Source: Agriterribacter humi | Lineage (GTDB): Bacteria; Bacteroidota; Bacteroidia; Chitinophagales; Chitinophagaceae | NCBI RefSeq assembly: GCF_009192765.1 | Contig: NZ_VOHQ01000005.1 | Span: 62,001 to 126,000, forward strand | DNA length: 64,000 nt | Direction of reading: 5' to 3' | Shown here: positions 1 through 64,000 of the stretch, one piece after another | Position numbering within the stretch: the stretch's first letter is position 1 | How the letters are laid out: every line of letters begins with the position of its first letter | Notes under the pieces: generated by a model | The model's database searches: none | Seen by the model: only the letters and a program-made list of their open reading frames with translations | Told to the model about the DNA's origin: nothing | Made by a program: the position numbers and the translations under genes

Positions 1-1947
1 AAATATTTCGGGAAGCAGGAGGTGATAGGTAAAACATTTGCGATCAATAATGATACCACGCTATACAAAGTAACGGGTGTTATGGAAGATATACCAGCCC
101 ATTCGCATTTCCACTTCGATATATTTGCTTCGATGAAAGGCTGGAGAGATGCTGGTTCCGATTCATGGCTGGGGGGTGGCTTTCATACCTATTTATTGCT
201 GAAACCTGGTACTGATCAGCAAAAAATGCAGGCACGGTTTCCGGACATGGTAGCCAAGTATATGGGCCCGCAAATTCAAAAAGGGATGGGCTTAAGCCTC
301 GAACAATTCAGAACTAAGGGAAATAAACTGGGATTTGTGCTCCAGCCTTTAACTTCTATACACCTGCATTCTGATACGTCTAATGAATTTGAACCGGGCG
401 GAAATGCTACATACGTATATATATTTGGCGGTGTTGCGCTTTTCATGCTCATTGTAGCCTGCATCAATTTTATCAATCTCTCTACTGCCGGTGCATCCAA
501 AAGAGCCAAAGAAGTGGGTATACGGAAAGTAGCAGGTTCCGGTAAACTTCAACTTATCAGGCAATTTTTATTCGAATCGCTGCTGATAACCTTTTTTGCA
601 TTACTCATTGCGTTTGTATTGTTGCAACTGGCGCTTCCCTGGTTTAACAACATCTCCGGAAAGCAATTGAGCATCGGGTTAAATCCTGTATTGGCATTTA
701 TCATGCTGGGATTGATTGTTGGATTGGCGGCCGGAATTTATCCCGCGTTCTACCTATCCTCTTTTAAACCAATTGCTGTATTAAAAGGAAAACCTGCCGG
801 CAATAATAAAAACTTTGCCTTGCGGAGTGGACTGGTTGTTTTTCAATTCTTCATTTCAGTGGCTTTGATCATAGGAACCATAGTGGTGTACCAGCAAATG
901 AAATATATACAAAACAAAGACCTGGGATACAACAAAAATCAGGTCATTACTATTCCCAATTCATGGGCTTTAGGCGCAAACGAAAAAGTATTTAAGCAAC
1001 AAATGCAGCAGGATCCCCGTGTATTAAATGCAACAATGTCGTGGTATAAGCCTACAGAGCCCAACAACTACAACAATGCACTGGGCTACCCGGCCGGCAA
1101 CGACAATTTAATAGTAAGTGGTGTAAACTATTATGTAGATGAGCAATATATCCCAACCCTGGGCATGCAAATGATCAGCGGAAGAAACTTCTCGAAAGAT
1201 TTCGCTACCGACTCCAGCGCCATTATTCTGAACGAAACTGCAGCAAAGGCTTTAGGATGGAATGCAGAAACAGCTATTGATAAAACAGTGATAAGACAGA
1301 ACAGCTCTAAAGGCGATAATTTTCCTTTTCATGTCATTGGTGTTGTAAAAAATTTCAACTTCAAATCCCTTCACGAAGCCATCAGTCCTTTGTATATGAC
1401 CCTGCAACCCGAAGGCGGATTGATTTTTAAAGTAACCAACAGTGATATATCCGGTCTGCTGGCTGCTATGAAAACAAAATGGGACAGTTACAATACAGAA
1501 GAACCGTTTACTTTTTCTTTCATGGATGATTATTTCAACAAAGCTTATGCAGCAGAGCAAAAAACAGGTACCATACTGAACATCTTTGCGATACTCACCA
1601 TTTTTGTGGCTTGTCTTGGCTTATTTGGACTGGCAACCTATACTGCAGAACAACGCACAAAGGAAATAGGCATCAGGAAGGTATTAGGCGCCAGTGTAAC
1701 TCAGGTAACCCAAATGCTTTCCAAAGAATTTTTAAAGCTGGTATTGATTTCATCGCTTATTGCTTTCCCGGCTGCCTGGTGGGGCATGAATAAGTGGCTG
1801 CAAAACTTTGCATATCGTATTGATATTTCCTGGTGGGTATTTGCTGTAGCAGGATTGGCCGCGCTGGCAATTGCCCTGCTCACAGTGAGTTTCCAGGCTA
1901 TAAAAGCAGCAGTTGCGAACCCGGTGAAAGCGTTGCGGACGGAGTGA
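1..1947 (+). CDS. Gene 1 (5' partial): FtsX/MacB-type ABC permease, subfamily B
   Basis: The last 648 residues of a permease whose start lies left of the window. The frame is open from base 1 (KYFGKQEVIGKTF, a stretch found near residue 150 in the complete paralogs), so about 150 residues are missing and the GTG at base 22 is internal. Remaining parts are the end of periplasmic domain 1, the linker SIHLHS, TM2-4 with KEVGIRK (fragment residue 169), TM5, periplasmic domain 2, TM6-8 with TKEIGIRKVLGAS (553), and the tail NPVKALRTE. Both membrane cysteine motifs are present (ACINF, ACLGLFG). An R1 repeat starts at the base after the TGA. The truncation is a window artefact; no internal damage is seen. 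Confidence 0.95.
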   Translation, partial: KYFGKQEVIGKTFAINNDTTLYKVTGVMEDIPAHSHFHFDIFASMKGWRDAGSDSWLGGGFHTYLLLKPGTDQQKMQARFPDMVAKYMGPQIQKGMGLSLEQFRTKGNKLGFVLQPLTSIHLHSDTSNEFEPGGNATYVYIFGGVALFMLIVACINFINLSTAGASKRAKEVGIRKVAGSGKLQLIRQFLFESLLITFFALLIAFVLLQLALPWFNNISGKQLSIGLNPVLAFIMLGLIVGLAAGIYPAFYLSSFKPIAVLKGKPAGNNKNFALRSGLVVFQFFISVALIIGTIVVYQQMKYIQNKDLGYNKNQVITIPNSWALGANEKVFKQQMQQDPRVLNATMSWYKPTEPNNYNNALGYPAGNDNLIVSGVNYYVDEQYIPTLGMQMISGRNFSKDFATDSSAIILNETAAKALGWNAETAIDKTVIRQNSSKGDNFPFHVIGVVKNFNFKSLHEAISPLYMTLQPEGGLIFKVTNSDISGLLAAMKTKWDSYNTEEPFTFSFMDDYFNKAYAAEQKTGTILNIFAILTIFVACLGLFGLATYTAEQRTKEIGIRKVLGASVTQVTQMLSKEFLKLVLISSLIAFPAAWWGMNKWLQNFAYRIDISWWVFAVAGLAALAIALLTVSFQAIKAAVANPVKALRTE

Positions 1948-2182
1948 CCTCACCCCCGGCCCCTCTCCGCGTAGCGGAGGGGGGTGCCTAAATTTATGGC
2001 TGGTTGAGTGAATGGCGAGAGGAGCAACCTGGCATTCAAGGCAACCGGGAAATAGAAGAGATGTAAAAATGTAAAGCGCTTATCCGGATTTATTCAAATG
2101 CTGATATGGAAGAACTAAAAGTTTGTAATTGTTATGTAGTGCCGTCCCTCTCCATTGCATGGAGAGGGATAAGAGGGTGAGG
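1948..2182 (+). repeat. R1 element, copy 1 (REPIN/MITE-like)
   Basis: A 235-bp element beginning at the base after the gene 1 stop. The left end is CCTCACCCCCGGCCCCTCTCC-like and folds into a hairpin (CCCCTCTCC against GGAGGGGG). The right end (about 2140-2182) has CCCTCTCC...GGAGAGGG followed by ATAAGAGGGTGAGG, so the outer ends are imperfect inverted repeats. The interior is of the diverged subtype, sharing TCCGGATTTATT with the copy at 49421. It is followed by a 30-nt AT-rich leader to gene 2. Confidence 0.8.
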
Positions 2183-2212
2183 TAATATCAAATCCTAAAT
2201 ATCAAATCTCAA

Positions 2213-4600
2213 ATGATAAAAAATCTCTTACTCGTTGCGCTGAGGAATTTTAAAAGAGACAAATGGTATAGCCTCTTAAATATTCTTGGGCTTACCATTG
2301 GAATAACTTTTGGTTTGTTCCTTATCTTTTATATTAAAGATGAGTTAAGCTATGACAGGTATCATAAGAAAGCTGATAGAATATTTCGTGTAAACTCCAT
2401 CATTAAGGAGGCAGACAGGGATACCATGCGCTGGGCGATAGCGCCCTTTCCAATGGGACCCGCTTTGGCAAAAGATTATCCTGAAGTAGAGGAATCCGTT
2501 CGATTTGTAAACAGTGGAAGAACCATGTTTAAGAATGGTGGGTTAAGGTTGTATGAAGACAAGGTATTTTTTGCCGACAGTAATGTGTTTCGTGTATTTA
2601 CTTATCCTTTTATTGAAGGAAATCCACAAACAGCATTGAAAGAACCCAACACAGTTGTACTTTCTCAATCATCAGCTATAAAATTTTTTGGCACAAACAA
2701 ATCTTACGTTGGTAAAACTTTGGAGAATGTTAATGGTAAGGTATACAAAGTAACGGGAGTGATGAAAGACGTTCCCAAAAATTCCCATTTCATTTTTAAT
2801 ATCCTGGCTTCGAGGAGTTCGCTTCCGGCCGATTTCGCGAATAACTGGGGGAACTTTGATTACTTCACCTATGTATTACTAAAACCGGGTACAACGGCCG
2901 CCGTCTTTGATAATAAGATGAAACCCATGTACGATAAATACCTGGCTTCCATTTTTGCGCAGTATAATATTAAAATAAAGTTTGAAGCGCAACCCATCAC
3001 CTCCATACATCTTCATTCCAATACCGCTAACGAGCCTGAAGAAACGGGTAGCATGTCTTATATCTACATATTTTCGGCTGTTGCATTTTTTATGTTGCTG
3101 ATCGCCTGCATTAACTATATGAATCTCACTACCGCGAGATCAGCGAGAAGAGCAAAGGAAATAGGTATAAGAAAGGTAACCGGTTCAAATAAAACACAAC
3201 TGGTATTACAGTTTTTGATTGAATCAACACTTACGGCTTTAGTTGCTTTATTATTGAGTATAGGGCTGATTGCGCTGTTCCTTCCAATGTTCAATACACT
3301 GGCCGGGAAATATATTTCGTTCGGTACATTATTCAGACCAGATACTATACTTATTCTGCTGGCTGTAGTTGTGTTTGTTGGAATTGTGGGCGGCAGTTAC
3401 CCGGCATTTTATCTATCAAAGTTTAACCCGGTTGATGTATTAAAGGGAAGCTTGTCAAAAGGCTCCAGCAATGCTAATTTAAGAAAGGCTTTAGTGGTGA
3501 TACAGTTTTCCATATCCATGATTATGCTCATTTGCACATGGGTGGTATATGGACAACTTCGATATTTAAGAAACAAGGATCTTGGTTTTGATAAAGCCCA
3601 GGTGATGACTGCATCGGCTGTTACAGACAGGGATATACAAAGTGCTGTTCTTTCTTTTAAGAATGAAATGCGCAATAACCCGCAGGTACTTTCTGTTAGT
3701 GCTGCAAGCTCAGTGCCGGGGCAGGGAAATAGTTTTAATTTATTTTCTGTTCAAACAAAAGACGGATATGTAGATAAAGGAGTAGATGTATATGCTATTG
3801 ATGAAGACTATATTAAAACACTCGGTATTAAATTGGCAAAGGGCAGAAACTTTTCAGGACTTCCGGATACGCTGCATGGTATGCTGGTGAATGAGAAAAT
3901 GGTACAGGAATTTGGCTGGGGCGATAATCCGCTTGGCAAAAGAGTGAAATTTCCCGGTGATACTTCAGGTAATTATCTTGAAGTGGTAGGCGTAGTGAAA
4001 GACTTCAATCAAAAGTCATTATACAATCCTATTACTCCATTGATCTTATTGTACCGGCCCAATACCAATCTTATCCAGCTAAAATTAAGCACTGCAAATA
4101 TTTCTTCTGCTATTACGCGTATAGAAAATACCTGGAAAAAAATATTTCCCGATATTCCTTTTCAGTATACATTCCTTGACCAGGATTTTGATTCTCAATA
4201 TGCCGCCGATCAGAAACGTGGAAAAATATTTACCGCATTCTCTATACTTACAATACTTATTACATGCCTTGGACTTCTGGGTTTGATTGCCTTTACAACA
4301 GAACAAAGACAGAAAGAGATCAGCATCCGTAAAGTAATGGGTGCGAATGTTGGCCAGATCGTTCCGCTGATTACTAAAAATTTTGTTGTACTGGTTGGAT
4401 TATCCTGTATTGTAGCTTTTCCGGTTGCATGGTATTTTATGGCGAAATGGCTGAAGATATTTCCATACAATACGGGGTTAAGTATAATGCCATTTATACT
4501 TTCAGCGCTGGTTGTGTTGTTGATAACGATGCTTACGGTTATATTTCATACCGTAAGAGCGGCTGTTGCTAACCCGGTGAAGGCTTTGAGGAGTGAATGA
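2213..4600 (+). CDS. Gene 2: FtsX/MacB-type ABC permease, subfamily B
   Basis: A 795-residue inner-membrane permease; the first complete copy, used here as reference. Approximate layout: TM1 20-41; periplasmic MacB_PCD-like domain 45-265; linker SIHLHS; TM2 283-305; cytoplasmic RRAKEIGIRK (about 312-321); TM3 330-355; TM4 378-400 ending GGSYPAFYLS; LKGS; TM5 422-447; second periplasmic domain 450-650; TM6 672-693; KEISIRKVMGAN (701, with Ser for the usual Gly); TM7 725-745; TM8 757-780; tail NPVKALRSE. In characterised relatives (MacB, LolC/LolE, FtsX) the TM2-3 loop docks on the ATPase, and the periplasmic domains handle substrate or transmit ATPase-driven motion. Two such modules in one chain resemble a fused permease dimer. 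The substrate is unknown. Confidence 0.95.
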   Translation: MIKNLLLVALRNFKRDKWYSLLNILGLTIGITFGLFLIFYIKDELSYDRYHKKADRIFRVNSIIKEADRDTMRWAIAPFPMGPALAKDYPEVEESVRFVNSGRTMFKNGGLRLYEDKVFFADSNVFRVFTYPFIEGNPQTALKEPNTVVLSQSSAIKFFGTNKSYVGKTLENVNGKVYKVTGVMKDVPKNSHFIFNILASRSSLPADFANNWGNFDYFTYVLLKPGTTAAVFDNKMKPMYDKYLASIFAQYNIKIKFEAQPITSIHLHSNTANEPEETGSMSYIYIFSAVAFFMLLIACINYMNLTTARSARRAKEIGIRKVTGSNKTQLVLQFLIESTLTALVALLLSIGLIALFLPMFNTLAGKYISFGTLFRPDTILILLAVVVFVGIVGGSYPAFYLSKFNPVDVLKGSLSKGSSNANLRKALVVIQFSISMIMLICTWVVYGQLRYLRNKDLGFDKAQVMTASAVTDRDIQSAVLSFKNEMRNNPQVLSVSAASSVPGQGNSFNLFSVQTKDGYVDKGVDVYAIDEDYIKTLGIKLAKGRNFSGLPDTLHGMLVNEKMVQEFGWGDNPLGKRVKFPGDTSGNYLEVVGVVKDFNQKSLYNPITPLILLYRPNTNLIQLKLSTANISSAITRIENTWKKIFPDIPFQYTFLDQDFDSQYAADQKRGKIFTAFSILTILITCLGLLGLIAFTTEQRQKEISIRKVMGANVGQIVPLITKNFVVLVGLSCIVAFPVAWYFMAKWLKIFPYNTGLSIMPFILSALVVLLITMLTVIFHTVRAAVANPVKALRSE

Positions 4601-4877: not shown

Positions 4878-7241
4878 ATGTTTAGAAACTATTTCAAAAT
4901 CGCCTGGCGGAATATTACAAGGCATAAAGCATATTCCATACTCAATATAGCAGGACTATCTATTGGCATGGCCTGCAGTATACTTATTTTGCTTTGGGTA
5001 CAGCACGAGTTAAGTTATGATCGCTTCAACCGGCATGCACATGAGATATACCGTCTCACCTGTAATGCCGGTGATTTCAAAGCTGCCGTAAGTCCGGCAG
5101 GTATGGCGGAAGAATTGCGGGCGGAAATGCCGGAAATAGAAGCTACGGTACGTATAAGCAAGCCGTCTACCAGCCTGGTAGAAGTCGGTGACAAAAAATT
5201 TGAAGAACATCGTGTTTTTTTTGCTGACTCCAATTTCCTGCAGGTCTTTTCCTATGCCCTGCTTAGTGGCGACCGTAAAACAGCACTGAACAGCGCTGAC
5301 GGTGTTTTAATCACTCAGGATATTGCAAAGAAATATTTTGGGAGCGAAGATGCTGTAGGTAAAATGATACGCGTAAACAATAATGAAAACTTTGTAGTAA
5401 AAGGCATTTTGGCAAATGCACCGTCTAATGCTCATTTCCGGTTTGATATCATTTTTCCTATGGCAACGCTTGCCCGGACAGACTATGATTTGATCAACAA
5501 GGTTTGGGGCAATTTTAATTTCTATACATATATTCAGTTTCATAACAACTTCAACAAAGCAGGCATACCCGGTATCATCAAAAAAATCAAGGCCATTCAC
5601 AGGGCGCATAACGGCGACGGACTCAAAGTGGATTTTCACCTGCAGCCATTACCGGATATTCATCTGCATTCTGATCTGCAGATTGATTTGCCCGGACATG
5701 GCAATATCCAGTATGTCAACATTTTTTTCATAGTGGCTATCTTTATTCTTGCGGTAGCGTGCATCAACTTTATGAACCTAGCCACAGCCCGGTCAGCGCG
5801 GCGTGCAAAGGAAGTAGGATTGAGAAAAGTTGTTGGTGCCAGCCGTTACCAGATCATTCTCCAGTTTTTAGGTGAAGCCATGATCATTGCCTTCATTTCA
5901 CTGCTTGTTGCTATCGGTATAGTATACCTGCTATTACCGGTATTCAACACCCTGTCTGGAAAGGAATTGACTATAAATGCGTTTAGTGGCGAGCTATGGA
6001 TCAACCTGTTGATCATAGCATCCGTCACCGGCATCCTGTCTGGCAGCTATCCTGCTTTATTCCTTTCAGGCTTTAAACCGGTGAAAGTGCTGAAAGGAAA
6101 AGTTAAAGTGGCGGACGCCAGTTTTATATTACGGAATACACTTGTTGTTGCTCAATTCGTAGTAGCTATATTGTTGCTCACAGGGACCGCTGTAGTATAC
6201 CGGCAACTGAATTTTATTAAAAACAAAAATCTCGGCTTCGACAAGGAAAACCTGCTGTATGTACCCATGACGGGTGAGTTGTGGAATAAGCGGCAGTCAT
6301 TGAGGTCTGCACTGCAACAAAATCCGCTTACCTCCGATTTTTCAGTGATTTCAGATTTACCTACTGCGCTCATTTCCGGCACAACGGATATTGATTGGCC
6401 GGGTAGAGATCCTAAATCTCAGGTAGTAGTGCCTTCAATAGATGTGGATGTAAAATTTATGGATGTTTTCAAAGTAAAGCTGCTTGCCGGCCGTGGTTTT
6501 TCCGCGGCGCTGACAACAGACAGTTCGAATTACATGATCAATGAAAAGATGATGCAGGTGATGGGAATGAATATAAATAATGTGGTGGGGCAAAACATCA
6601 GGTTTGGCGATAATAAAGGGACGGTGATAGGGGTAGTAAAAGATTTCAATTTTAAACCGTTGCAATATGCCATTGAGCCATTGGTACTGAGATTTAACAA
6701 ATACGGCGGATTGGTAATGGTACGTACGCAACCCGGAAAAACAGAAGCCACTATAGCCGCGCTGAAAGACATCAGCCACTCCCTCAATCCTTCTTATCCA
6801 TTTGCTTACAGTTTCCTCGATAAGGATATTGATAATTTATATCGTGGCGAGCAGCAGATGGGTGGCATATTTAATCTCTTTGCCGCACTCGCTATTTTTA
6901 TTTCCTGTCTCGGGTTATACGGATTGTCTGCCTTCATGGCAGAACAGCGTACAAAAGAGATTGGCGTACGCAAAGTACTGGGGGCTTCAATATTCAATAT
7001 CGTATATCTTTTGTCTGCAAACTTTACGGGGTTAATATTGATTGCGATGTGCATAGCAATCCCCCTCTCTTGGGTGGCCATGAGCAAATGGCTTGACGGG
7101 TTTGCCTACCGGATTGAATTCAACTGGACCATATTTCTTGCAGCCTGTGCAACTGCATTATTGATTGCCTGGCTAACGGTGAGTTATGAATCTATTAAAG
7201 CGGCGGTGGCAAATCCTGTGAGATCACTCCATACGGAGTAA
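4878..7241 (+). CDS. Gene 3: FtsX/MacB-type ABC permease, subfamily B
   Basis: A 787-residue two-module permease. It starts MFRNYFKIAWRNITRHK, matching the N-terminal signature of the family; TM1 follows at about 20-42 (SILNIAGLSIGMACSILILL). Periplasmic domain 1 carries AKKYFG near residue 150, and the linker is DIHLHS. The first cytoplasmic loop reads KEVGLRKVVGAS (311) and the second TKEIGVRKVLGAS (about 692). Membrane cysteines are present (ACINF, SCLGLYG). The tail is NPVRSLHTE, with His replacing the usual Arg. The AT-rich leader has no recognisable Shine-Dalgarno. Gene 4 follows after only 69 nt with no hairpin, so co-transcription is likely. Confidence 0.95.
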   Translation: MFRNYFKIAWRNITRHKAYSILNIAGLSIGMACSILILLWVQHELSYDRFNRHAHEIYRLTCNAGDFKAAVSPAGMAEELRAEMPEIEATVRISKPSTSLVEVGDKKFEEHRVFFADSNFLQVFSYALLSGDRKTALNSADGVLITQDIAKKYFGSEDAVGKMIRVNNNENFVVKGILANAPSNAHFRFDIIFPMATLARTDYDLINKVWGNFNFYTYIQFHNNFNKAGIPGIIKKIKAIHRAHNGDGLKVDFHLQPLPDIHLHSDLQIDLPGHGNIQYVNIFFIVAIFILAVACINFMNLATARSARRAKEVGLRKVVGASRYQIILQFLGEAMIIAFISLLVAIGIVYLLLPVFNTLSGKELTINAFSGELWINLLIIASVTGILSGSYPALFLSGFKPVKVLKGKVKVADASFILRNTLVVAQFVVAILLLTGTAVVYRQLNFIKNKNLGFDKENLLYVPMTGELWNKRQSLRSALQQNPLTSDFSVISDLPTALISGTTDIDWPGRDPKSQVVVPSIDVDVKFMDVFKVKLLAGRGFSAALTTDSSNYMINEKMMQVMGMNINNVVGQNIRFGDNKGTVIGVVKDFNFKPLQYAIEPLVLRFNKYGGLVMVRTQPGKTEATIAALKDISHSLNPSYPFAYSFLDKDIDNLYRGEQQMGGIFNLFAALAIFISCLGLYGLSAFMAEQRTKEIGVRKVLGASIFNIVYLLSANFTGLILIAMCIAIPLSWVAMSKWLDGFAYRIEFNWTIFLAACATALLIAWLTVSYESIKAAVANPVRSLHTE

Positions 7242-7265: not shown

Positions 7266-7321
7266 GTGAAAATCAACAATCAATAAATCAGACATCATAA
7301 ATAACACTTTATGTTCAAAAA
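7266..7321 (+). repeat. L1 leader, form shared with gene 23
   Basis: 56 nt covering the end of the spacer and the first codons of gene 4, identical base for base to 57546-57601 before gene 23. It contains the ATCAACAATCAATAAATCAG and CATCATAAATAACACTTT stretches. The gene bodies beyond are from different subfamilies (C versus A). Confidence 0.8.
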
Positions 7322-20029: not shown

Positions 20030-20030
20030 A

Positions 20031-20256
20031 CCTCACCCCCCCTCTCCCCGCTGAGGAGAGGGGCGCCTAAGGTCAGTGCGTGTGGAGTAAATGTAAGAGG
20101 GAAAACAAGAAAACTTAAGATGACGGGAAATGAAAAACTAACTGATCGTTCAGGTGTGCAAGGAATTATTCTAAGGATGATATGGAAGAATCAAAAGTTT
20201 TGAATTGCACTGTAGTACCGTCCCTCTACATGCTGTGGAGAGGGATAGAGGGTGAG
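20031..20256 (+). repeat. R1 element, copy 3
   Basis: An uninterrupted 226-bp copy. The left hairpin is CCCCTCTCC...GGAGAGGGG, and the right one CCCTCTACA...TGTGGAGAGGG, followed by ATAGAGGGTGAG. The interior (AACTTAAGATGACGGGAAAT, CTGATCGTTCAGG, GATATGGAAGAATCAAAAG) is very close to copies at 22866, 33210 and 43944. It fills most of the 301-nt gene 8-9 spacer; the last 74 nt are AT-rich and unlike other leaders after the first ten bases. Confidence 0.85.
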
Positions 20257-22813: not shown

Positions 22814-22864
22814 AAGCAAAAAGCGGCGATAGCGAATCCGATTCAGTCATTGCGTACGGAGTGA
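22814..22864 (+). pseudogene. Relic C-terminal tail after gene 9
   Basis: In-frame codons read KQKAAIANPIQSLRTE-stop, a second copy of the conserved tail, 30 nt after the functional stop. The intervening 29 nt contain CGTCATTGCGA and the palindrome GCGCCGCGGCGG. The relic stop is followed by ACCTCACCCCC, the R1 left end that elsewhere directly follows the true stop, so the relic probably marks the ancestral gene end. Gene 14 has the same arrangement. Confidence 0.75.
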
Positions 22865-25749: not shown

Positions 25750-25784
25750 GCGGTCGGCACGCGACGAAAGGAGCGTCAGACCGC
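25750..25784 (+). repeat. RA palindrome, copy 3
   Basis: GCGGTCGGCACGC...GAGCGTCAGACCGC, close to the family consensus, with a purine-rich loop GACGAAAGGA. It is followed by GGGTTAAATGTAAG, as at 46852. Confidence 0.8.
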
Positions 25785-38967: not shown

Positions 38968-39038
38968 GGGTAAATGTGAGAGATGCAGGAATGTGGGAAA
39001 TCAGAAATCACAAAATCAGAAATCATAAATCTTCTTCT
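38968..39038 (+). repeat. L1 leader before gene 16, form shared with gene 22
   Basis: GGGTAAATGTGAGAGATG, then repeated AATCAGAAATCA-type units and CATAAATCTTCTTCT before the ATG. Nearly the same sequence lies at 54997-55065 before gene 22, again directly after an RA palindrome. Confidence 0.75.
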
Positions 39039-43942: not shown

Positions 43943-43943
43943 A

Positions 43944-44176
43944 CCTCACCCCCCGGCCCCTCTCCCCGCTGAGGAGAGGGGTGCCTAAGGTCAGAGCGTG
44001 TGGCGTAAATTTAAGGAGGGGAAACACGAAAACTTAAGATGACGAGAAATGAAAAACAATCTGATCGTTCAGATATGCAGGGAATTATGCTAAGGATGAT
44101 ATGGAAGAATCAAAAGTTTGGAATGGTACTGTAGTACCGTCCCTCTACACGCTGTGGAGAGAGGAAAGGGGGTGAG
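43944..44176 (+). repeat. R1 element, copy 7
   Basis: A 233-bp clean copy with hairpins at both ends (CCCCTCTCCCCGCTGAGGAG and CCCTCTACACGCTGTGGAG). Its interior is close to copies 3-5. The 383-nt gene 17-18 spacer is this element followed by an operator-like dyad and a sigma-54-like promoter (44181-44325). R1 may serve as a 3' barrier for the upstream message; that is inference. Confidence 0.85.
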
Positions 44177-46875: not shown

Positions 46876-46917
46876 AATCGCTGAAAGCTAATGGCTGACA
46901 GCTCAAAGCTTACAACT
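46876..46917 (+). repeat. L2 leader before gene 19, short form
   Basis: AATCGCTGAAAGCTAATGGC-TGACAGCTCAAAGCTTAC-AACT before the ATG. It lacks the 24-nt palindrome, as does the gene 10 leader. Confidence 0.65.
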
Positions 46918-49714: not shown

Positions 49715-49749
49715 GCGGTCGGTACGCGACCAAAGGAGCGTCAGACCAC
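49715..49749 (+). repeat. RA palindrome, copy 7
   Basis: GCGGTCGGTACGCGAC...GGAGCGTCAGACCAC; one terminal base has mutated (GACCAC for GACCGC). Confidence 0.75.
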
Positions 49750-55065: not shown

Positions 55066-57480
55066 ATGCTCAAAAACTATTTAAAAATCGCATGGCGTTC
55101 TCTTGTTAAAAACCGGGTTACTGCTATTATTAACATATTGGGGCTTTCCGTAGGAATTAGTGCAGCGCTCATCATTTTTATGGTGGTACATTATAATTTT
55201 AGTTTTGACCGGTTTGTTCCTGGCAGAGACTATGTATATAGAATAGTTACTGAAGGAGAGGGTTGGAACAATAGCGGCGTGCCTGTACCTTTCCATACTG
55301 CATTACATAATATTTCAGGTGTTGCAGGCGTAACGCCAATACTTAATTATTCCGATAAGGTTAAAATAAGCATAAACGAGGGGAACAATACCGAGCCGAA
55401 ATTGTTCAGGAAACAAACGGATGTGGCGTTTACCAATATGGAGTACTTTAAAATATTTCCACATAAATGGATAGCCGGCAATCAGCAAAAGGCTTTAGGT
55501 AACCCTTATTCAATCGTTATAACTAACAGCAGAGCAAAGCAATATTTCCCGGATTTGAAACCTGAAAATGTAATTGGTAAAACAGTTATACTTAATGATA
55601 CTATTACTACAACCGTAACTGGTATCGTAAATGACCTGGAAGTCAATAGCGATTTTGATAAAATGATTTTTGTTTCCCTCCCAACAGCCACCCTGGGAAA
55701 TTTGAAAGACTATTTTAATTGGAAGCACTGGGATAACACTAATTCAAGCTTTCAAACCATCATAAAACTTTTGCCGGGAATAAAGCCAGAGCAAATTAAT
55801 AACCAGCTCGCAAAAGTTTTTAAGGAACGTGATCCTGGCAATACTAAAACGATTCACAGACTTCAGCCATTAAGTGATGTGCATACCAATCCTGTATTTG
55901 GAGGATCCGCTAATCCTGAAACGATGCGCAACCTGGTGATTTTAGGCGCTTTTCTATTGCTGCTGGGAGCAATCAATTTCATTAATTTATCCACTGCGCA
56001 TGCATCGGAACGATCAAAGGAAATTGGTATTCGGAAAACATTAGGCAGCACGAAAAAGCAAATTGTTTTCCAGTTTCTGTCAGAAACATTTTTGCTAACT
56101 GTACTTACCGCTTTGTTGGCGATTGTTCTTATACCTTTATTGCTGAAAGGGTTTGAAGGTTTTGTTCCCGAAGGTTTACATTTTAATTATTTTCTGCAAC
56201 AACCCTTTGTATGGCTGTTTTTACTGGTATTGATTATAGCGGTAAGTGTTTTGTCCGGTTTGTATCCTGCATTTGTATTAACAACATTTAAACCTGTATT
56301 GGCTTTAAAAAGCAATTTGCCGGCAGGAGATAATATATCCAGAGGTGTATTGTTGCGTAAAACTTTAATTGTATCACAGTTTGTAATAGCACAGGTGTTT
56401 ATTATAGGGGTGTTTGTAGTGAATAAGCAAATACGATTTTCGCTGCAAAAAGATATGGGTTTCAGAAAAAATGCTATCATCAATTTCTATCCGCCATTTG
56501 ATTGGTATAATCCCAACAATAAAAAATTTTTATTGAAAGATGCCCTATCTAAAATACCGGAAATACAAAAGCTTAGTTTTGGTAATCAGTCTCCTGCTTT
56601 TAATGGATATATGACGAGTAGTATTACTTATAAAGAAAATAACAAGAATCAGGAGATAACAGTTAATACGAGGAATGGCGATACTTCTTTTTTAAGTGTG
56701 TATGATATTAAATTGCTTGCGGGCAGGAATATTTTATTAACTGATACTGCAAATGAGCTTCTTGTTAATGAAACATTATCAAAGCAATTGGGATTTAAAG
56801 AACCATCAGATGCAGTTGGGCATTTTGTGTTTTTTAATGGTGCACCTAAACCCATTGTTGGCGTAATGACTGATTTCAATTTGCAATCTGTAAGAAATAG
56901 TATTAATCCTCTTATATATTATGCATCTCCCAAGAATGCCTATGTTATGCATATAGCATTACAACCTGACCCGGCAACCTGGAAAACAGCAATAAGCAAA
57001 ATGGAGAAAGCCTGGAAGCAGATATATCCCGATCAGGATTTTGAGTATACCTTCCTGGATAAAACAATTGAAAATTTTTATAAAGAAGATCAGCAACTTT
57101 CAAAACTATTGACCTGGTCGGCAGCGGTAGCGCTATTTATAAGTTCCCTTGGATTATTAGGACTAGTAATCTTCATTACCAATAAACGGATAAAAGAAAT
57201 AGGAATTCGAAAAGTATTAGGTGCTTCAGTGCGACAGATTATTGCTTTGCTTTCAACAGATTTTGTCAAATTACTCATACTTGCATTTATTATTGCTACG
57301 CCAATTGCATGGTGGCAAATGCATGGATGGCTGCAAAATTTTGCATACCGAACTAATTTAAGCTGGTGGATATTTTTGGTTAGTGGAGTAATCATGATTG
57401 TTATTTCACTTATTATTTTGGGCATAAGAGCCGGGAGTGCGGCAGTGGAAAATCCAGTGAAATTATTACGAACGGAGTGA
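55066..57480 (+). CDS. Gene 22: FtsX/MacB-type ABC permease, subfamily C
   Basis: An 804-residue permease starting MLKNYLKIAWRSLVKNR. Linker LSDVHTNPVFGGSANP; TM2 LLGAINFINLSTAHA and TM6 SSLGLLGL have both lost the family cysteines. First loop KEIGIRKTLGSTKKQ (318); GLYPAFVLTTFKPVLALKS in place of LKG; second loop IKEIGIRKVLGAS (about 709); tail VENPVKLLRTE, with Leu for Ser and Glu for Ala. Nearest relatives here are genes 9 and 15. A fragmentary R1-like start (57482) and mini-hairpins follow the stop. Confidence 0.95.
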   Translation: MLKNYLKIAWRSLVKNRVTAIINILGLSVGISAALIIFMVVHYNFSFDRFVPGRDYVYRIVTEGEGWNNSGVPVPFHTALHNISGVAGVTPILNYSDKVKISINEGNNTEPKLFRKQTDVAFTNMEYFKIFPHKWIAGNQQKALGNPYSIVITNSRAKQYFPDLKPENVIGKTVILNDTITTTVTGIVNDLEVNSDFDKMIFVSLPTATLGNLKDYFNWKHWDNTNSSFQTIIKLLPGIKPEQINNQLAKVFKERDPGNTKTIHRLQPLSDVHTNPVFGGSANPETMRNLVILGAFLLLLGAINFINLSTAHASERSKEIGIRKTLGSTKKQIVFQFLSETFLLTVLTALLAIVLIPLLLKGFEGFVPEGLHFNYFLQQPFVWLFLLVLIIAVSVLSGLYPAFVLTTFKPVLALKSNLPAGDNISRGVLLRKTLIVSQFVIAQVFIIGVFVVNKQIRFSLQKDMGFRKNAIINFYPPFDWYNPNNKKFLLKDALSKIPEIQKLSFGNQSPAFNGYMTSSITYKENNKNQEITVNTRNGDTSFLSVYDIKLLAGRNILLTDTANELLVNETLSKQLGFKEPSDAVGHFVFFNGAPKPIVGVMTDFNLQSVRNSINPLIYYASPKNAYVMHIALQPDPATWKTAISKMEKAWKQIYPDQDFEYTFLDKTIENFYKEDQQLSKLLTWSAAVALFISSLGLLGLVIFITNKRIKEIGIRKVLGASVRQIIALLSTDFVKLLILAFIIATPIAWWQMHGWLQNFAYRTNLSWWIFLVSGVIMIVISLIILGIRAGSAAVENPVKLLRTE

Positions 57481-57550: not shown

Positions 57551-57601
57551 AATCAACAATCAATAAATCAGACATCATAAATAACACTTTATGTTCAAAA
57601 A
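57546..57601 (+). repeat. L1 leader, form shared with gene 4
   Basis: 56 nt identical to 7266-7321, running from the spacer into the first codons of gene 23. The two copies are 50 kb apart. Confidence 0.8.
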
Positions 57602-59969
57602 TTATTTCAAAACTGCCTGGCGGAACATGGTTCACAACAAAGCATTCTCGGCCATTAATATTTCAGGACTGGCGCTGGGGATAACCTGCAGCCTGCTGAT
57701 CATGCTTTGGGTACAGGATGAGCGGAGCATTGATGGCTTTCATGCCAATAGCAGTCGTTTGTACCAGGTATATGAGCGACAGCACTACGATGGTAAAGTG
57801 GAAGCCGGCTATTCAACGCAGGGACTGCTTGCGGATGAGCTTAAAAGAGTAATTCCTGAAATACAATATGCCAGCGGGTTGGAATATGCAGCAGCACCGG
57901 GCGCGCTCAGTACTTTTGAAGTGGAAACAAGGATCAATAAAATGAGTGGATTTTTTGCAGGCGCTGATTTCTTCAGCATGTTCAGCTTTCCTTTACTGGA
58001 AGGAAAACCGGAATCAGCTTTGAATACGCCCGAAGGCATTGCTATTTCGCGAAAAATGGCCGAACTGTTTTTTGGAAGCCCGGAAAAAGCTATTGGCCAA
58101 GCCATCCGTTACGAAAACAAAGATGAATTGCAGGTAACTGCTGTGTTTGAAAATACACCTTCCAATTCTTCAATGCAATTCGATTTTTTGAGAAGCTGGA
58201 AAGCTTTTGTAAAAGAGAATGCCTGGGTAAACAATTGGGGAAACACAAGTCCTTCCACCTATGTGCAACTAAGCGCCGGTGCTGATCCCCTGAAAGTAAA
58301 AGCCAGGATCAAAGATTTCGTTTACAATTACAGGCAAAAAGAAAAAGGTTTTGTAGTGGAGCTGGATTTGCAGTCTTACCCTGAAAAATACCTTCATTCT
58401 TCTTTTAAAAACGGCAAAATTGATGGTGGACGCATAGAATATGTGCGCCTGTTTACGCTTGTAGCTGCTTTTATTTTGTTAATTGCCTGCATCAATTTTA
58501 TGAACCTGGCAACTGCCCGTTCTGCCAAACGATCTAAGGAGGTGGGTGTTCGAAAAGTTATTGGCGCCTCAAGGTATGCTTTGATCGGTCAGTTTACAGG
58601 AGAAGCAATGTTACTGACATGTATTTCAGTTTTAATTGCCGTTATTTTGGTAGCGCTGCTGCTGCCGGCCTTTAATACGCTTACCGGCAAACAATTATAC
58701 GTACCCATTACTAAACCCTTTTTCTGGACATCTTTAGCGGGATTGCTATTGGTTACAGGCCTGGTAGCGGGTAGCTATCCTGCATTTTTTCTCTCCTCGC
58801 TTAAACCTGTAAAGGTGCTAAAAGGTAGTTTGACATTTAGCTGGAGCGCAATATTTTTCCGTAAGGCGCTGGTGGTTTTCCAGTTTGCCCTCTCTATTGT
58901 ATTTATTGTAGGTATGATTGTAATTTATAAGCAGATGAATTATGTTCAGACAATAAACCTCGGTTATGACCGGGAAAACCTGGTATATATTCCTATAGAA
59001 GGCGACCTGGTTAAAAACTATGCACAGTTTAAAGAAGAAGCAGGCAAAATACCGGGCATCCTCAGCATTTCAAAAATGAGAAATTCACCAACCGTAATTG
59101 AACACCATACCAGCAGCATCGGGTGGCCGGGCAAAGACCCCAATCTTACCGTGTCATTTTCCGATGGCGTAGTGGGTTATGATTTTGTAAAAACAATGAA
59201 ATTAGAGTTAAAAGATGGGCGTGATTTTTCCAGGGACTTTGGAACAGATTCCGCAAGTTTTCTGCTGAATGAAACAGCCGCGGCAAAAATGGGATACAAG
59301 GACCCTGTTGGTCAGCCTGTGTCATGGGGCAACCGTCCAGGTAAGATCATTGGCGTACTTAAAGATTTTCATTTCAATTCCATACACCAGTCCATCGAAC
59401 CCCTGATCTTACGATTGGACGAAAACTGGGGCTGGGGCACCATACTGGTTCGTGCCGGGGCAGGCAAAACCAAAGCAACCATTACCGGACTGGAAAAAAT
59501 AGGTAAATCATTAAATCCAAAATTTCCTTTTACCTACCAGTTCTCCGATCTTGAATATATGAAATTGTATAAAAGCGAGCAGGTTGTCAGCAAACTATCC
59601 AATTACTTTGCCTTCCTGGCTGTTTTTATTTCCTGCCTGGGTTTATTGGGTTTAGCAATGTTCACTGCCGAACAACGTACCAAAGAAATTGGCGTACGCA
59701 AGGTGCTGGGCGCATCCGTTCCCAATATTATTGCGCTGTTATCCTCTTATTTTATAAAACTGGTTTTGGTCGCCATACTCATCGCCTCTCCCATAGCATG
59801 GTACGCGATGAACAGGTGGCTGCAGGGCTTTGCCTATAAAATTGATATAATATGGTGGATATTTGCACTTGCCGGTTTGCTCACCATTGGCGTGGCGTTG
59901 TTAACAGTGGGCTATCAAAGCATCAAAGCGGCTGTGGCAAACCCTGTAAAGAGTTTGAGAACGGAATAG
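57591..59969 (+). CDS. Gene 23: FtsX/MacB-type ABC permease, subfamily A (LYQVY type)
   Basis: A 792-residue permease starting MFKNYFKTAWRNMVHNK. The first periplasmic domain groups with genes 8 and 13 (SSRLYQVYERQHYDGK, STQGLLADELKRVIPE). Linker EKYLHSSFKNGKIDGGR; TM2 IACINFMNLATARSA; first loop KEVGVRKVIGASRYA (316); GSYPAFFLSSLKPVKVLKG; second loop TKEIGVRKVLGAS (about 697); TM6 SCLGLLG; tail NPVKSLRTE. Its TAG is directly followed by R3, as in gene 10. Upstream leader is the exact counterpart of the gene 4 leader. Confidence 0.95.
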   Translation: MFKNYFKTAWRNMVHNKAFSAINISGLALGITCSLLIMLWVQDERSIDGFHANSSRLYQVYERQHYDGKVEAGYSTQGLLADELKRVIPEIQYASGLEYAAAPGALSTFEVETRINKMSGFFAGADFFSMFSFPLLEGKPESALNTPEGIAISRKMAELFFGSPEKAIGQAIRYENKDELQVTAVFENTPSNSSMQFDFLRSWKAFVKENAWVNNWGNTSPSTYVQLSAGADPLKVKARIKDFVYNYRQKEKGFVVELDLQSYPEKYLHSSFKNGKIDGGRIEYVRLFTLVAAFILLIACINFMNLATARSAKRSKEVGVRKVIGASRYALIGQFTGEAMLLTCISVLIAVILVALLLPAFNTLTGKQLYVPITKPFFWTSLAGLLLVTGLVAGSYPAFFLSSLKPVKVLKGSLTFSWSAIFFRKALVVFQFALSIVFIVGMIVIYKQMNYVQTINLGYDRENLVYIPIEGDLVKNYAQFKEEAGKIPGILSISKMRNSPTVIEHHTSSIGWPGKDPNLTVSFSDGVVGYDFVKTMKLELKDGRDFSRDFGTDSASFLLNETAAAKMGYKDPVGQPVSWGNRPGKIIGVLKDFHFNSIHQSIEPLILRLDENWGWGTILVRAGAGKTKATITGLEKIGKSLNPKFPFTYQFSDLEYMKLYKSEQVVSKLSNYFAFLAVFISCLGLLGLAMFTAEQRTKEIGVRKVLGASVPNIIALLSSYFIKLVLVAILIASPIAWYAMNRWLQGFAYKIDIIWWIFALAGLLTIGVALLTVGYQSIKAAVANPVKSLRTE

Positions 59970-60133: not shown

Positions 60134-62542
60134 ATGCTAAAAAATTATATTAAAATCGCCTGGCGGAATATTACAAAAAGCCGTTTTCATGCCCTGGTAA
60201 ATATTTCAGGATTATCGGTGGGCATTGCTTTTACATTGCTTATTGGCGCATATGTATGGAGTGAACTGAATGTGAACAGTGCATTAAAGAACCTTAACCG
60301 GCAGTATATACTGCAAAGCAAATGGAAAAATCCCAACCAGGGACTTGAACTTACCACGGTTGGCCCACTGGCTAAGGCGCTAAGGGAAACGTACCCCCAC
60401 CTTGTGGCCAACTACTACCGCTGGGATGGCATTACATCGAATGTATCTAAGGGAGATAAGGTTTTTAGGGAAGGGCTGCAGGTTGGCGACAGCACGATGT
60501 TAAGCATGTATGGATTCAGTGTGCTGCATGGCAATACGAAAACAGCTTTTGATGATCCTTTTTCAGTGGTTATCACCGCGGAAAAAGCGATCAAATATTT
60601 TGGCAAAACAGATGTGACAGGAGAAACACTGTCTATAGAAAATTTTTCAGGAGCGAAGCATGATTTCATGATAAGTGCTGTATTAAAGAGCCCTGCAAAA
60701 AATTCTGTAACGATGCTCAACGATAATAACAATAACCAATTCTATATATCGGCCAATAACATCAGTTATTTTGGCCGAAATATGGACTGGCCTAATTTTT
60801 ATATTGTAGGTTATATTGAGCTTCAGAAAGGTGTTTCACCGATTGAACTGGAAAAGCCGATGCAGCATTTGTTAAAACAAAATGCGCCACCGGGAGTTGC
60901 GGAAAACCTTACTCCCTATATTGTTCCTTTAAACCAATATTACTTAGATGCCAATAACGGGTTGATCAAAAAAACCCTGTTTGCCTTATCCGGCATAGCA
61001 TTCTTTATACTGCTGATGGCCATTGTAAATTTTATAAATCTATCGGTGAGCAAATCAGCGGCGAGGATGAGAGAGATTGGCATTCGTAAAGTATTGGGTG
61101 GCGTAAGGAGGCAATTGATTGTTCAGTTCCTGGTGGAGTCGGTAATCACTGTTCTCTTTTCTACAATAGTAGCAGTCTTTTTATATATAGCAACCTGTAA
61201 CCTGTTCAGCAATATACTGGGCAAAGAAATTCCTTCTTTAAATGCCTTTCCATTATACTTCATTTTTATTCCGGCTATATTAATTGTATTGATCGGGTTC
61301 CTGGCAGGCATCTACCCTTCTTTTGTTTTATCTTCTCTTAAAGCGGTTGAATCCCTTAAGGGCAAGCTGGGAGCAGTAAAAGACAATGTTTTGTTGAGAA
61401 AGTTATTGATCGGTTTCCAGTTTGGCACGGCAGCGCTTGTTTTTATTTGCGCTTATATTATTACGGAACAAATGCAGCTTTTTTTTACAAAAGACTTAGG
61501 ATACAATAAAGACTATATCGTGTCTGCCCAGTTGCCACGCGACTGGTCACGGCCCGGAGTTGATAAAATGGAAACAATCCGCAGCCAGTTTGCAGCAATG
61601 CCGCAGGTTAGTAATGCCGCACTGTCTTATGAAGTGCCGGACGATAACAATGCCGGGCAGGTTACACTGTACAGGATCGGTTCCGATTCTGCCCATGCTG
61701 TTTCTTCACAACAATTCACCACAGATGAATATTACAGGTCCACTTTTAATATCCCGATGGCCGCCGGAGAATTTTTTGGAAAGGAAGGCGGGCTGGTGGA
61801 TGCAACTAAAATCGTTATCAATGAAAAGCAGGCTAAGGCCTTGGGCTGGAACGATCCACAAGATGCCATTGGTAAAGGAGTAGTTTTCCTGGGATTTAAT
61901 GGTTACAAAGCTGCAATAGCAGGTGTTACAAAGGATTTCAATACCGGCTCATTGCAAAAAGCGATTCCGCCGGTTACATTCGTGCATGTTAAAACCAATA
62001 CTATTTTCAGATTCCTGTCTTTCAAACTGCGGGCTGGCAATGTACGTGAATCCATAGCGGCTTTGCAGCAAAAATGGTCTGTGCTTTTGCCAGGCACTGC
62101 ATTCGACTTTACATTTATGGATGATACCATCAAAAAATTATATACAACAGAAATACAATTACAGCAGGCGTCTTATACCGCTGCTCTGCTGGCGCTTGTT
62201 ATTGTATTGCTTGGCGTGCTGGGCCTAATATCTTTAAGCGTACAAAAAAGGATAAAGGAAATCGGTATCCGGAAAATACTGGGATCTTCGGTTTCGGCCA
62301 TTATTGCCTTGTTTGTAAAAGAATTTCTGTCAATCGTGTTAATAGCCGGTTTGGTGGTTTGCCCGCTTGCCTATATATTAATGAACAGTTGGCTGAATGC
62401 ATACGTTTATCGGGTAGCCATAACCGGCATACCATTTATGGCATCTCTTGTTTTTATTGGCGCAGTTACGATACTGATCATTGTAGCCCGCACCTATAAA
62501 GCTGCTATGGATAACCCGGTGAAGAGCCTTCGCACCGAATAG
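60134..62542 (+). CDS. Gene 24: FtsX/MacB-type ABC permease, outlier subfamily
   Basis: An 802-residue permease starting MLKNYIKIAWRNITKSR. It keeps the two-module plan but is the most divergent member. TM2 LLMAIVNFINLSVSKSA and TM6 IVLLGVLGLISLSVQ have no family cysteine. The linker is NQYYLDANNGLIKKT. First loop REIGIRKVLGGVRRQ (314), second IKEIGIRKILGSS (about 707). TM4 ends GIYPSFVLSSLKAVESLKG; tail AMDNPVKSLRTE. Despite this, its last codons lie in the 49-nt block identical to genes 4 and 6, so the gene end was probably acquired by recombination. The start is fixed by the N-terminal signature. Confidence 0.94.
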   Translation: MLKNYIKIAWRNITKSRFHALVNISGLSVGIAFTLLIGAYVWSELNVNSALKNLNRQYILQSKWKNPNQGLELTTVGPLAKALRETYPHLVANYYRWDGITSNVSKGDKVFREGLQVGDSTMLSMYGFSVLHGNTKTAFDDPFSVVITAEKAIKYFGKTDVTGETLSIENFSGAKHDFMISAVLKSPAKNSVTMLNDNNNNQFYISANNISYFGRNMDWPNFYIVGYIELQKGVSPIELEKPMQHLLKQNAPPGVAENLTPYIVPLNQYYLDANNGLIKKTLFALSGIAFFILLMAIVNFINLSVSKSAARMREIGIRKVLGGVRRQLIVQFLVESVITVLFSTIVAVFLYIATCNLFSNILGKEIPSLNAFPLYFIFIPAILIVLIGFLAGIYPSFVLSSLKAVESLKGKLGAVKDNVLLRKLLIGFQFGTAALVFICAYIITEQMQLFFTKDLGYNKDYIVSAQLPRDWSRPGVDKMETIRSQFAAMPQVSNAALSYEVPDDNNAGQVTLYRIGSDSAHAVSSQQFTTDEYYRSTFNIPMAAGEFFGKEGGLVDATKIVINEKQAKALGWNDPQDAIGKGVVFLGFNGYKAAIAGVTKDFNTGSLQKAIPPVTFVHVKTNTIFRFLSFKLRAGNVRESIAALQQKWSVLLPGTAFDFTFMDDTIKKLYTTEIQLQQASYTAALLALVIVLLGVLGLISLSVQKRIKEIGIRKILGSSVSAIIALFVKEFLSIVLIAGLVVCPLAYILMNSWLNAYVYRVAITGIPFMASLVFIGAVTILIIVARTYKAAMDNPVKSLRTE

Positions 62543-62651: not shown

Positions 62652-62678
62652 GAATACGGGATTATGTAAAATGTTTAA

Positions 62679-62755
62679 ATTGCTGAAAGCTGATTCGCCA
62701 CGGCGGACAAGTTGCTGACGGAAAGCTAACTACTGACAGCTCAAATCATACAATT
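62679..62755 (+). repeat. L2 leader before gene 25 with 24-nt palindrome
   Basis: L2 containing the mini-palindrome at 62690-62713 with one substitution (TTCGCCACGGCGGA). GCTGACGG is followed by an extra AAAGCTAACTACTGACAG-like unit before CTCAAATC, so the leader is longer than its relatives. Confidence 0.7.
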
Positions 62756-64000
62756 ATGTTAAGAAACTATTTTAAAATCATTCTTAGAAACCTGAAAACC
62801 CAAAAAGTCTTCTCCGCCATAAATCTTCTTGGGTTAACCGTTAGCCTCACGGCTGTAATATTTATATCGCTGTATATACGGTACGAGTTGTCTTACGACA
62901 AATATTTACCCACATCCGGTAATGTTTACAGGCTTTATACTGAAAATACCCGGTTAAAGGAGGATGCCAATAAACTGCAATTGCCAACCGGCCTGGCAGA
63001 AATGCTTAAAAAGGAGTTCCCCGAAGTGAAGGAGTTCGTGCAGATAAACCAGGGAAAACAGGAATTTATAGGGAAAAACGGAAATATAAAAGTCGGCACG
63101 CTTGATGCCGGCAATAATTATTTCACCATATTTCCTTTCACCTTTATTGCAGGTAACCCACAGCAGGCGTTATCGGAAAAAAATTCGATTGTTCTTACCG
63201 AATCTGCTGCTAAAAAAATATTTGGCAACACCAACCCTTTGAACCAGGTATTAATGAATACCCAAAATGAACCATTTACCGTAACTGCTATTGTAAAAGA
63301 CATCCCGGCTAATACTCATTTTGAAGCAGAGGCTATTGTTAATTTAAGCTATCCCTGGGCCTTAAAGCCGCTCAACTGGAAAGCCTATTCCGGTATATAC
63401 CAATATGTATTATTAGGAGATAACGTTGAAGCAGGGGCGCTGCAAAAAAAGTTTAAGTCTGTTTATGAAAAATATGCTTTTCCTAAAGATATACAACTTG
63501 TTTTGCAACCGGTAACAGCTATCCACCTGCACTCCAATTTCAGTGGTGAATTATCTGTAAACTCCGATATCCGGTATATCTACATTTTCGGACTGGCAGC
63601 ACTGCTGCTATTGTTTCTTGCAGGCATCAATTACATCAATCTCTCAACTGCCCGTTCGCTGCACCGTGCAAAAGAAACAGGTATCAGAAAAGTACTGGGC
63701 GCCCAAAGAAAAGGGATTATCATACAATTCCTTTCGGAAACAATCCTGTTTTTCCTTTTAGCAACCATCGCCTCAATTGTATTAACAATTATTTTTTCTG
63801 CTTTCATTGCGGGAATATTACACATTAACCCGGATGTTTTTACAGCATTTGATACCGCTTCGCTCCTTGTTTTTTTGGGAGGAATATTATTTTTTGGAGT
63901 GATAGCAGGGCTTTATCCTGCATTTTACTTATCAAAACAAGCGCCTGCATTCATTATAAAAGGGATAATGAGCAGAAACGCATTTAATGTAATATTAAGG
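62756..64000 (+). CDS. Gene 25 (3' partial): FtsX/MacB-type ABC permease, subfamily B
   Basis: The first 415 codons of a permease, open to the right edge. It starts MLRNYFKIILRNLKTQK, then TM1 (SAINLLGLTVSLTAVIFISL). Periplasmic domain 1 has AKKIFGNTNPLNQ and TAIVKDIPANTHF. Linker TAIHLHSNFSGE; TM2 FLAGINYINLSTARSL, with Gly for the usual cysteine; first loop KETGIRKVLGAQRKG (306), Thr-Gly for Val-Gly; GLYPAFYLSKQAP follows TM4. The second module, if present, lies beyond the window. The start is supported by the family signature and by the L2 leader just upstream. Confidence 0.93.
   Translation, partial: MLRNYFKIILRNLKTQKVFSAINLLGLTVSLTAVIFISLYIRYELSYDKYLPTSGNVYRLYTENTRLKEDANKLQLPTGLAEMLKKEFPEVKEFVQINQGKQEFIGKNGNIKVGTLDAGNNYFTIFPFTFIAGNPQQALSEKNSIVLTESAAKKIFGNTNPLNQVLMNTQNEPFTVTAIVKDIPANTHFEAEAIVNLSYPWALKPLNWKAYSGIYQYVLLGDNVEAGALQKKFKSVYEKYAFPKDIQLVLQPVTAIHLHSNFSGELSVNSDIRYIYIFGLAALLLLFLAGINYINLSTARSLHRAKETGIRKVLGAQRKGIIIQFLSETILFFLLATIASIVLTIIFSAFIAGILHINPDVFTAFDTASLLVFLGGILFFGVIAGLYPAFYLSKQAPAFIIKGIMSRNAFNVILR

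Follow-up and report, generated by a model that had tools for sequence, protein, structure and literature searches.

Acidobacterial duplicated orphan permeases (ADOP, TIGR03434) form large paralogous families and, according to the family description, have no adjacent ATPase gene. In MacB, the ATPase is contacted by the major coupling helix, which lies between transmembrane helices 2 and 3, and by a minor coupling helix at the C terminus (accessible part of PMC5985334). A single fused permease of YbbAP binds to two chains of its ATPase (accessible part of PMC12646458). Here we describe a stretch of 64,000 nucleotides (nt) from Agriterribacter humi (Bacteroidota, Chitinophagaceae), referred to as the window, which corresponds to positions C30:62001-126000 of contig NZ_VOHQ01000005.1 (C30 for short) in a 5.69-Mb draft genome of 34 contigs. 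The window is filled with tandem genes for permeases of the MacB/FtsX kind. With a probability of roughly 0.57, we read them as belonging to an exporter locus like those of MacAB and DarBCD (type VII ATP-binding cassette, ABC), in which one adaptor and one ATPase would serve 27 alternative permeases making up an exchangeable repertoire; the sharing of the engine and the recombination are the parts of this reading that we infer. Genomes of relatives are denoted by G-numbers with the suffix C for the contig, and coordinates without a contig refer to the window.

The permease array spans 72 kb of a single strand (+, C30:55247-127164) and, judging from the list of open reading frames (ORFs) and the flanks, comprises 27 full-length members of about 800 amino acids (aa). 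Members 1 and 2 (+ strand, starting at C30:55247 and C30:59050) lie fully outside the window, 23 are whole inside it, and two are cut at its edges, namely member 3 (1..1947, +; full gene C30:61536-63947) and member 27 (62756..64000, +; full gene C30:124756-127164). The 23 complete ORFs encode 783-841 aa, all on the plus strand, with spacers of 65-438 nt within the window, and the three minus-strand ORFs of at least 150 aa each overlap permease ORFs. None of the 27 members has an internal stop. The FtsX model recognizes two domains per member, and 54 of the 71 FtsX matches of the genome fall in the array. The initial annotation had described 23 complete and two edge-cut same-strand genes with these spacer lengths and undamaged frames, in an array running off both edges, and all of this is borne out. 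Its statement that there is nothing else holds within the window and has to be limited to it, because outside it members 1 and 2 are separated by an unrelated 401-aa gene (C30:57745-58950; weak match to 3-keto-disaccharide hydrolase, below the cut-off), and the array is immediately preceded by three non-array genes.

Such arrays usually have intact frames, relatives included. In 18 regions of 13 genomes there were 187 full-length and four broken members (short remnants may have escaped the count); in a wider list, a stop inside the matched stretch was seen in three genus matches, one each in G006:C7, G008:C2 and G009:C1. Undamaged frames had initially been considered unusual for so long a tandem family, but they are equally normal in the arrays of relatives, and the possibility that most of these genes are frameshifted there does not agree with the counts. 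The other possibility raised, a collapsed or mis-joined repeat, is not supported either: mis-assembly is unlikely because the members are only 26-53% identical at the aa level and the same architecture recurs in separate assemblies.

Two genes on the same strand head the array. The first (C30:52332-53675) encodes an adaptor of the HlyD/membrane fusion protein (MFP) type (RND_mfp, 117.6 bits against a cut-off of 94.9), with DarC as the best equivalog, below its cut-off (166 of 450 bits). The second (C30:54212-54889), directly upstream of the array, encodes a 225-aa ABC ATPase (ABC_tran, 131 bits) whose best equivalog is DarD (303 of 375 bits), above the LolD, FtsE and MacB matches; its nearest counterparts elsewhere in the genome share about 50% identity with it. 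Between the two, on the opposite strand, a four-helix protein of the 23S rRNA-intervening type is encoded. Out of 202 relatives found with the adaptor, the best 80 were kept and 77 could be assessed (the other three had less than 400 nt downstream). An ATPase like the head ATPase lies downstream of the adaptor in 73 of these 77 loci and at least one permease in 72, while at least three permeases were found in 49 of the 58 loci having the full 10 kb. Among the same best 80, the nearest named adaptor records are from Chitinophagaceae. Within the genus, the adaptor is present in 8 of 11 genomes; the seven fetched further all have the adaptor and the ATPase side by side, followed by a permease array in six. 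In G007, the adaptor and ATPase genes (G007:C3:508000-510014) and two permease arrays (G007:C1) are on different contigs. The order adaptor-permease-ATPase-permeases was seen in four Parapedobacter/Sphingobacterium loci.

The comparison of copy number and synteny proposed in the initial annotation reveals 2 to 27 permeases per fetched array, in scrambled order. Besides the 27 of A. humi, the fetched regions contain 21 full-length members in G005, 20 in G002, 11+11 in G007, 15+7 in G004, 9+14 in G003 (one region incomplete at its end), 4+3 in G006 (contig-broken), 13 in G008 (array interrupted, one member inverted), 12 in G112, 8 in G099, 7 in G083, 3 in G081 and 2 in G058. Such permeases occur in 89 of 296 sampled Bacteroidota genomes, none of them above the DarB cut-off. 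In three genomes of the family the permease run ends at a second ATPase gene that differs from the first (G112:C23:124640, G081:C29:110374 and G058:C1:4449275), and the same was observed in some named loci.

The linked MFP adaptor and ATPase expected of a tripartite ABC exporter are thus present and conserved in relatives, and the absence of an adjacent ATPase that characterizes ADOP is not observed, the ATPase lying directly upstream of the array. Because adaptor and ATPase head the array both here and in relatives, the array is the permease part of an adaptor-ATPase-permease exporter locus and not an orphan family.

Each of the ten window genes scanned with Pfam (out of 25) has two MacB_PCD and two FtsX stretches, all above the cut-offs. 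An AlphaFold2 model of member 4 (2213..4600, +; 795 aa), with a mean local confidence (pLDDT) of 84.2 and a predicted template-modeling score (pTM) of 0.77, shows eight long helices able to span the membrane. The best PDB matches found by Foldseek with this model were YbbP, a Porphyromonas permease domain and MacB, with LolCDE and BceB also matched, at modest query TM-scores (best 0.46). Judging from these domains and from the model of one member, the array encodes type VII (MacB-like) ABC permeases that have a MacB-like fold with coupling helices. The nearest solved fold, YbbP, is a lipid-extracting permease (accessible part of PMC12646458). This agrees with a rather remote alternative, in which the locus is not an efflux system and each permease serves one class of envelope molecules, extracting lipoproteins or lipids in a LolCDE- or YbbAP-like manner. 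The linked adaptor, which is an MFP of the HlyD/RND (resistance-nodulation-division) type, argues against it; we know of no such adaptor in Lol or YbbAP.

We then mapped the 27 members onto the member 4 model, using segment limits set by hand. Mean pairwise identity is 25% in the periplasmic domains, 43% in the transmembrane segments, 56% in the N-terminal segment, 68% in the major coupling helices and 76% in the C-terminal tail. With the MacB and YbbAP contacts mapped on this profile, the segments expected to touch the ATPase are the conserved ones and those expected to face the cargo are variable. Since the periplasmic domains are only 25% identical, compared with 68% for the major coupling helices, it is plausible that different members have different substrates. 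Two dispersed permeases of the same genome (C23:284066 and C3:204779) have the same coupling and tail motifs, and the 10 kb examined around either of them contain no similar ATPase; C32:214887, also dispersed, has diverged further. The dispersed permeases without a nearby ATPase, together with the contig split in G007, suggest that adaptor and ATPase may be shared in trans, and we infer that all members use the head ATPase. Each permease is a fused pair of MacB_PCD-FtsX halves. In the mechanism we favor, of the mechanotransmission type, every member would dock on the same ATPase dimer, one engine driving many permeases. Each would recognize a periplasmic cargo of its own, be it peptides, lipids or toxic compounds, and the common adaptor would hand this cargo over to a TolC-type channel whose gene lies elsewhere.

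The counterpart of this mechanism is that the members are ADOP-like orphan permeases which have become independent of an ATPase and serve as sensors, membrane receptors or structural proteins. They do resemble ADOP over their full length (237-325 bits), and there is a single ATPase for 27 permeases, with none inside the array. However, the ADOP cut-off of 622 bits is missed by all ten members scanned, so that membership in this family is rejected; moreover, ATPase and adaptor are found at the head of the array in A. humi as well as in relatives, and the putative ATPase-docking segments are among the most conserved parts. We therefore regard the orphan alternative as improbable.

The members are individually conserved under purifying, not diversifying, selection. 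The ratio of nonsynonymous to synonymous substitution rates (dN/dS) has a median of 0.092 and a maximum of 0.197 over 31 ortholog pairs (one more pair, with dS 0.03 and a value of 0.24, was excluded). By segment, the medians are 0.096 for the periplasmic domains and 0.074 for the transmembrane part; the former value led us to reject diversifying selection on the periplasmic domains. The dN/dS check called for initially thus confirms the proposed continuing selection on many members. As to the rest of that interpretation, substrate variety is only plausible, as stated above, and the members are not recent local duplicates but lineages common to several genomes. Pairwise aa identity among the 27 averages 35.2% (range 25.9-53.3%), and recent local duplication is rejected, adjacent members being no closer to each other than random ones (35.3 versus 35.2%). 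In a FastTree phylogeny of 187 members from 13 genomes, all 27 A. humi members have a sister clade with genes of other genomes, in one case including an A. humi paralog too. Support for the sister clades is mostly high and is low for a few (0.16 for member 24, 55066..57480, +; 0.69 for member 13, 25869..28220, +). For 21 of the 27 there is a reciprocal best match of at least 55% in at least one of 12 genomes.

Some of these lineages have been exchanged horizontally. We compared 153 reciprocal permease pairs across eight genomes with gyrB, mfd, adaptor and ATPase of the same genome pair. In 13 of them the synonymous differences do not reach 0.7 of the lowest reference value, and these are best read as horizontal transfers. 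In one G004-G007 pair the synonymous difference is 0.20, against at least 0.73 in the reference genes. Member 21 (46891..49416, +; start probably ATG at 46918) differs from its G004 ortholog by 0.31, against at least 0.66, and was probably exchanged with the G004 lineage. Gene order has changed as well: where both members of a neighboring pair have orthologs, these are still adjacent in only 4 of 36 cases, three of them between G002 and G004. The members therefore belong to lineages common to, and reshuffled among, genomes. Whole-gene gene conversion was rejected, the fourfold-site identity of A. humi paralogs being 0.32 in the body and 0.37 in the tail.

The ends of the genes behave differently from their bodies. 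For this analysis we used 32 ortholog pairs with body identity of at least 80% and the 178 of 187 genes that have standard ends. Orthologs are on average 86.9% identical (nt) in the body and 71.5% in the last eight codons, where A. humi paralogs reach 67.3%; the tail falls below the body in 31 of 32 ortholog pairs and in 21 of 21 non-overlapping ones. The identity profile stays mostly at 83-94% (with one dip to 78%) up to about 16 codons from the end and then, in four-codon steps, reads 81, 78, 72 and 71%. A first control set of 40 non-permease pairs (3 of 43 were left out because of unaligned ends), dominated by the head ATPase with 23 pairs, besides 5 adaptor and 6 passenger pairs, gave 84.3% in the body and 85.7% in the tail, with the tail lower in 17 of 40. 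In a wider control set, which adds gyrB, mfd and neighbors and is counted by family, a tail mean more than 8 points under the body was seen for mfd, one flank gene and the four-helix protein, 3 of the 17 families, compared with 16 of 20 permease clusters. Upstream of the genes, 80 nt could be aligned for 22% of the 32 permease pairs versus 71% of 28 controls. Base-level views of 11 pairs showed homology stopping in or near the tail and, in most, starting close to the start codon. Exceptions are two G002-G004 pairs (145180/64442 and 137246/69714), in which upstream homology is partly kept, and member 3 of A. humi with its G006 ortholog, in which downstream homology is. For the tail segment, taken as 33 nt of coding sequence plus 45 nt downstream, the best match is the ortholog in just 3 of 46 cases, a same-genome paralog in 19 and a non-ortholog elsewhere in 24, and near-identical leaders precede non-orthologous members, across genomes too.

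Bodies are thus separate from the last codons and, mostly, from the upstream leaders; because orthologs with similar bodies differ in their tails and mostly also in their leaders, the bodies behave like exchangeable cassettes. What appears peculiar to the permease tail is that it is conserved between paralogs and exchanged between orthologs; variable ends occur elsewhere too. The array may accordingly be a repertoire renewed by recombination, with bodies changing slots and genomes and with breakpoints preferentially in the spacer repeats and the conserved ends of the genes. If exchange and deletion are clean, this would help explain the rarity of broken copies. It is doubtful that this amounts to a dedicated cassette system, in which recombination aimed at gene ends and spacer repeats would trade permease bodies within and between genomes in an integron-like manner, swapping the specificity of the pump while ATPase and adaptor are kept.

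The spacers contain two kinds of repeats. E3, an element of about 230 nt, has 44 matches in four genomes; by a hand count against the maps, 30 of them are in or directly behind arrays, all 30 in gene orientation. The query copy (43943..44175, +) starts right after a stop codon and has a strong predicted hairpin, which folds better than 200 of 200 shuffles (z -4.9); for covariation, an alignment of four copies gave one compensatory pair only. Other copies on the plus strand are at 20030..20255 (89% to the query copy), 33245..33453 (88%) and 22901..23122 (81%), accompanied by two pieces at 1947-1991 and 2086-2180 (+) and short ones at 38716-38793 and 49421-49462. E4 is a 35-nt palindrome, and 5 of its 11 copies in the genome are in the array (25750..25784, +; 36109-36143, 49715-49749, 52418-52452 and 54962-54996); none was found in three relatives. 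An IS200-like Y1 transposase gene (C30:51553-52041, minus strand) lies next to the adaptor gene on its upstream side, some 3 kb ahead of the first permease, and might be linked to the palindromes in the spacers. The Bacteroidota -33/-7 promoter motif had no exact match, with 4.75 expected by chance, so that individual promoters of this type were rejected.

Some spacers also carry ghost copies of a gene tail. Within 250 nt behind the gene such copies follow 7 of the 187 members, with none on the reverse strand or in five shuffles; in the window they lie on the plus strand at 22841..22864 (ending NPIQSLRTE-stop), 36042..36065 (NPVESLRTE-stop) and 30701..30724 (VKSLRTE-stop). Members 6 (7311..9737, +), 8 (12488..14860, +) and 26 (60134..62542, +) have different bodies, with identical last codons and palindrome in common. 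Ghost tails and shared ends look like traces left at the tail by recombination or by inserted palindromes.

Several observations weigh against an exporter with an exchangeable repertoire. For all controls with a body identity of at least 80%, the tail is at 80.7% and the body at 84.7%, the tail being lower in 40 of 67 pairs, and the ends of mfd diverge too (body 81%, last eight codons 52%); the wider controls thus weaken the tail argument somewhat. Downstream spacers are equally poorly alignable for permeases (22%) and controls (20%), and some tails were apparently replaced by palindromic insertions. A passenger oxidoreductase of the GFO/IDH/MocA type, found within four arrays (G002:C4:153060, G003:C47:76357, G004:C8:60045 and G005:C23:70570), lacks permease ends and yet has a lowered tail in six of six pairs and unrelated leaders in six of six, so the end effect may in part reflect the location rather than crossovers within gene ends. 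As regards export, a similar ATPase is missing from the 10 kb downstream in three Parapedobacter loci with permeases, and one more has no permeases either; the TolC-type outer membrane efflux (OEP) domains near the array sit in RND pump genes; and DarBCD is, according to the accessible part of PMC9055067, not essential for darobactin production in heterologous hosts, so that export is not proven even for that system.

The points on gene ends (the lost downstream homology of controls, the divergent mfd tail, tails built from palindromic insertions and the passenger gene) would all fit an ordinary ancient tandem family shaped by duplication, loss and mostly vertical divergence, with end differences resulting from fast-evolving gene ends and repeat insertions. 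Four G000-G006 orthologs, whose synonymous differences (0.25-0.38) are near those of ATPase (0.35) and adaptor (0.46), fit it as well. Such a family, however, does not readily account for a tail that is 76% conserved between paralogs and still below the body in almost all ortholog pairs, for the 13 pairs more similar than the reference genes would suggest, for the lack of any member with its own paralogs alone as sister clade, or for the scrambled gene order. We consider it unlikely, if the most serious of the alternatives, and retain the exporter with an exchangeable repertoire. If dozens of permeases depend on a single ATPase and adaptor, the ABC exporters of Bacteroidota are miscounted whenever every permease is counted as a separate system, and the whole repertoire would be silenced by one deletion. 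Cassette-like exchange would provide a natural library of specificity parts that can be swapped around a shared engine, and would make cargo recognition testable in a common type of permease.

The other members in the window, all on the plus strand, are member 5 (4878..7241), member 7 (9856..12240), member 9 (15172..17568), member 10 (17651..20029), member 11 (20331..22784), member 12 (23184..25568), member 14 (28286..30667; start probably ATG at 28289), member 15 (30827..33208), member 16 (33580..35985), member 17 (36263..38716), member 18 (38976..41450; start probably ATG at 39039), member 19 (41528..43942), member 20 (44326..46749), member 22 (49855..52233), member 23 (52558..54909) and member 25 (57591..59969). 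The right flank, with flavin adenine dinucleotide (FAD) enzymes, anti-sigma and sigma factors and ferritin-like proteins, is apparently unrelated to the array. To the left, C30:39370-43731 encodes an AcrB-type RND pump with a C-terminal OEP domain in one 1453-aa frame.

Compared with described systems, the locus resembles DarBCD, the darobactin transporter (permease DarB, adaptor DarC, ATPase DarD), in having the same three gene types, and the Dar models cover most of the length of its proteins. It differs in having 27 permeases instead of one and in that all three parts are below the curated cut-offs; with at most 192 bits for the ten permeases scanned (cut-off 700), 166 for the adaptor (450) and 303 for the ATPase (375), membership was rejected. 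With MacAB-TolC (type VII ABC) it shares the periplasmic MacB_PCD and membrane FtsX domains, the coupling helices and the MFP adaptor, whereas its permeases have the two halves fused in tandem, the ATPase is separate and the permease is multiplied. The duplicated architecture of about 800 aa is that of ADOP, but the array members score about half the cut-off and have ATPase and adaptor linked to them. YbbAP-TesA, the best fold match, resembles the array in its single-chain permease with two-fold pseudosymmetry and its separate ATPase; unlike the array permease, modeled with eight long helices and linked to an MFP adaptor, YbbP has 10 transmembrane helices and binds TesA. Integron-type cassette arrays likewise consist of exchangeable frames in the same orientation with repeats between them. 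In the present array, in contrast, the cassettes all encode proteins of a single family, and breakpoints seem to fall in the gene ends themselves; no site-specific integrase was found among the flank proteins scanned, which cover part of the flanks. Among the papers listed by searches for tandem MacB/FtsX permease arrays or ADOP we found no description of such arrays, most subscription journals being outside our reach. The kind of transporter, a type VII tripartite ABC exporter, is known; its many-fold, probably exchangeable permease part is new.

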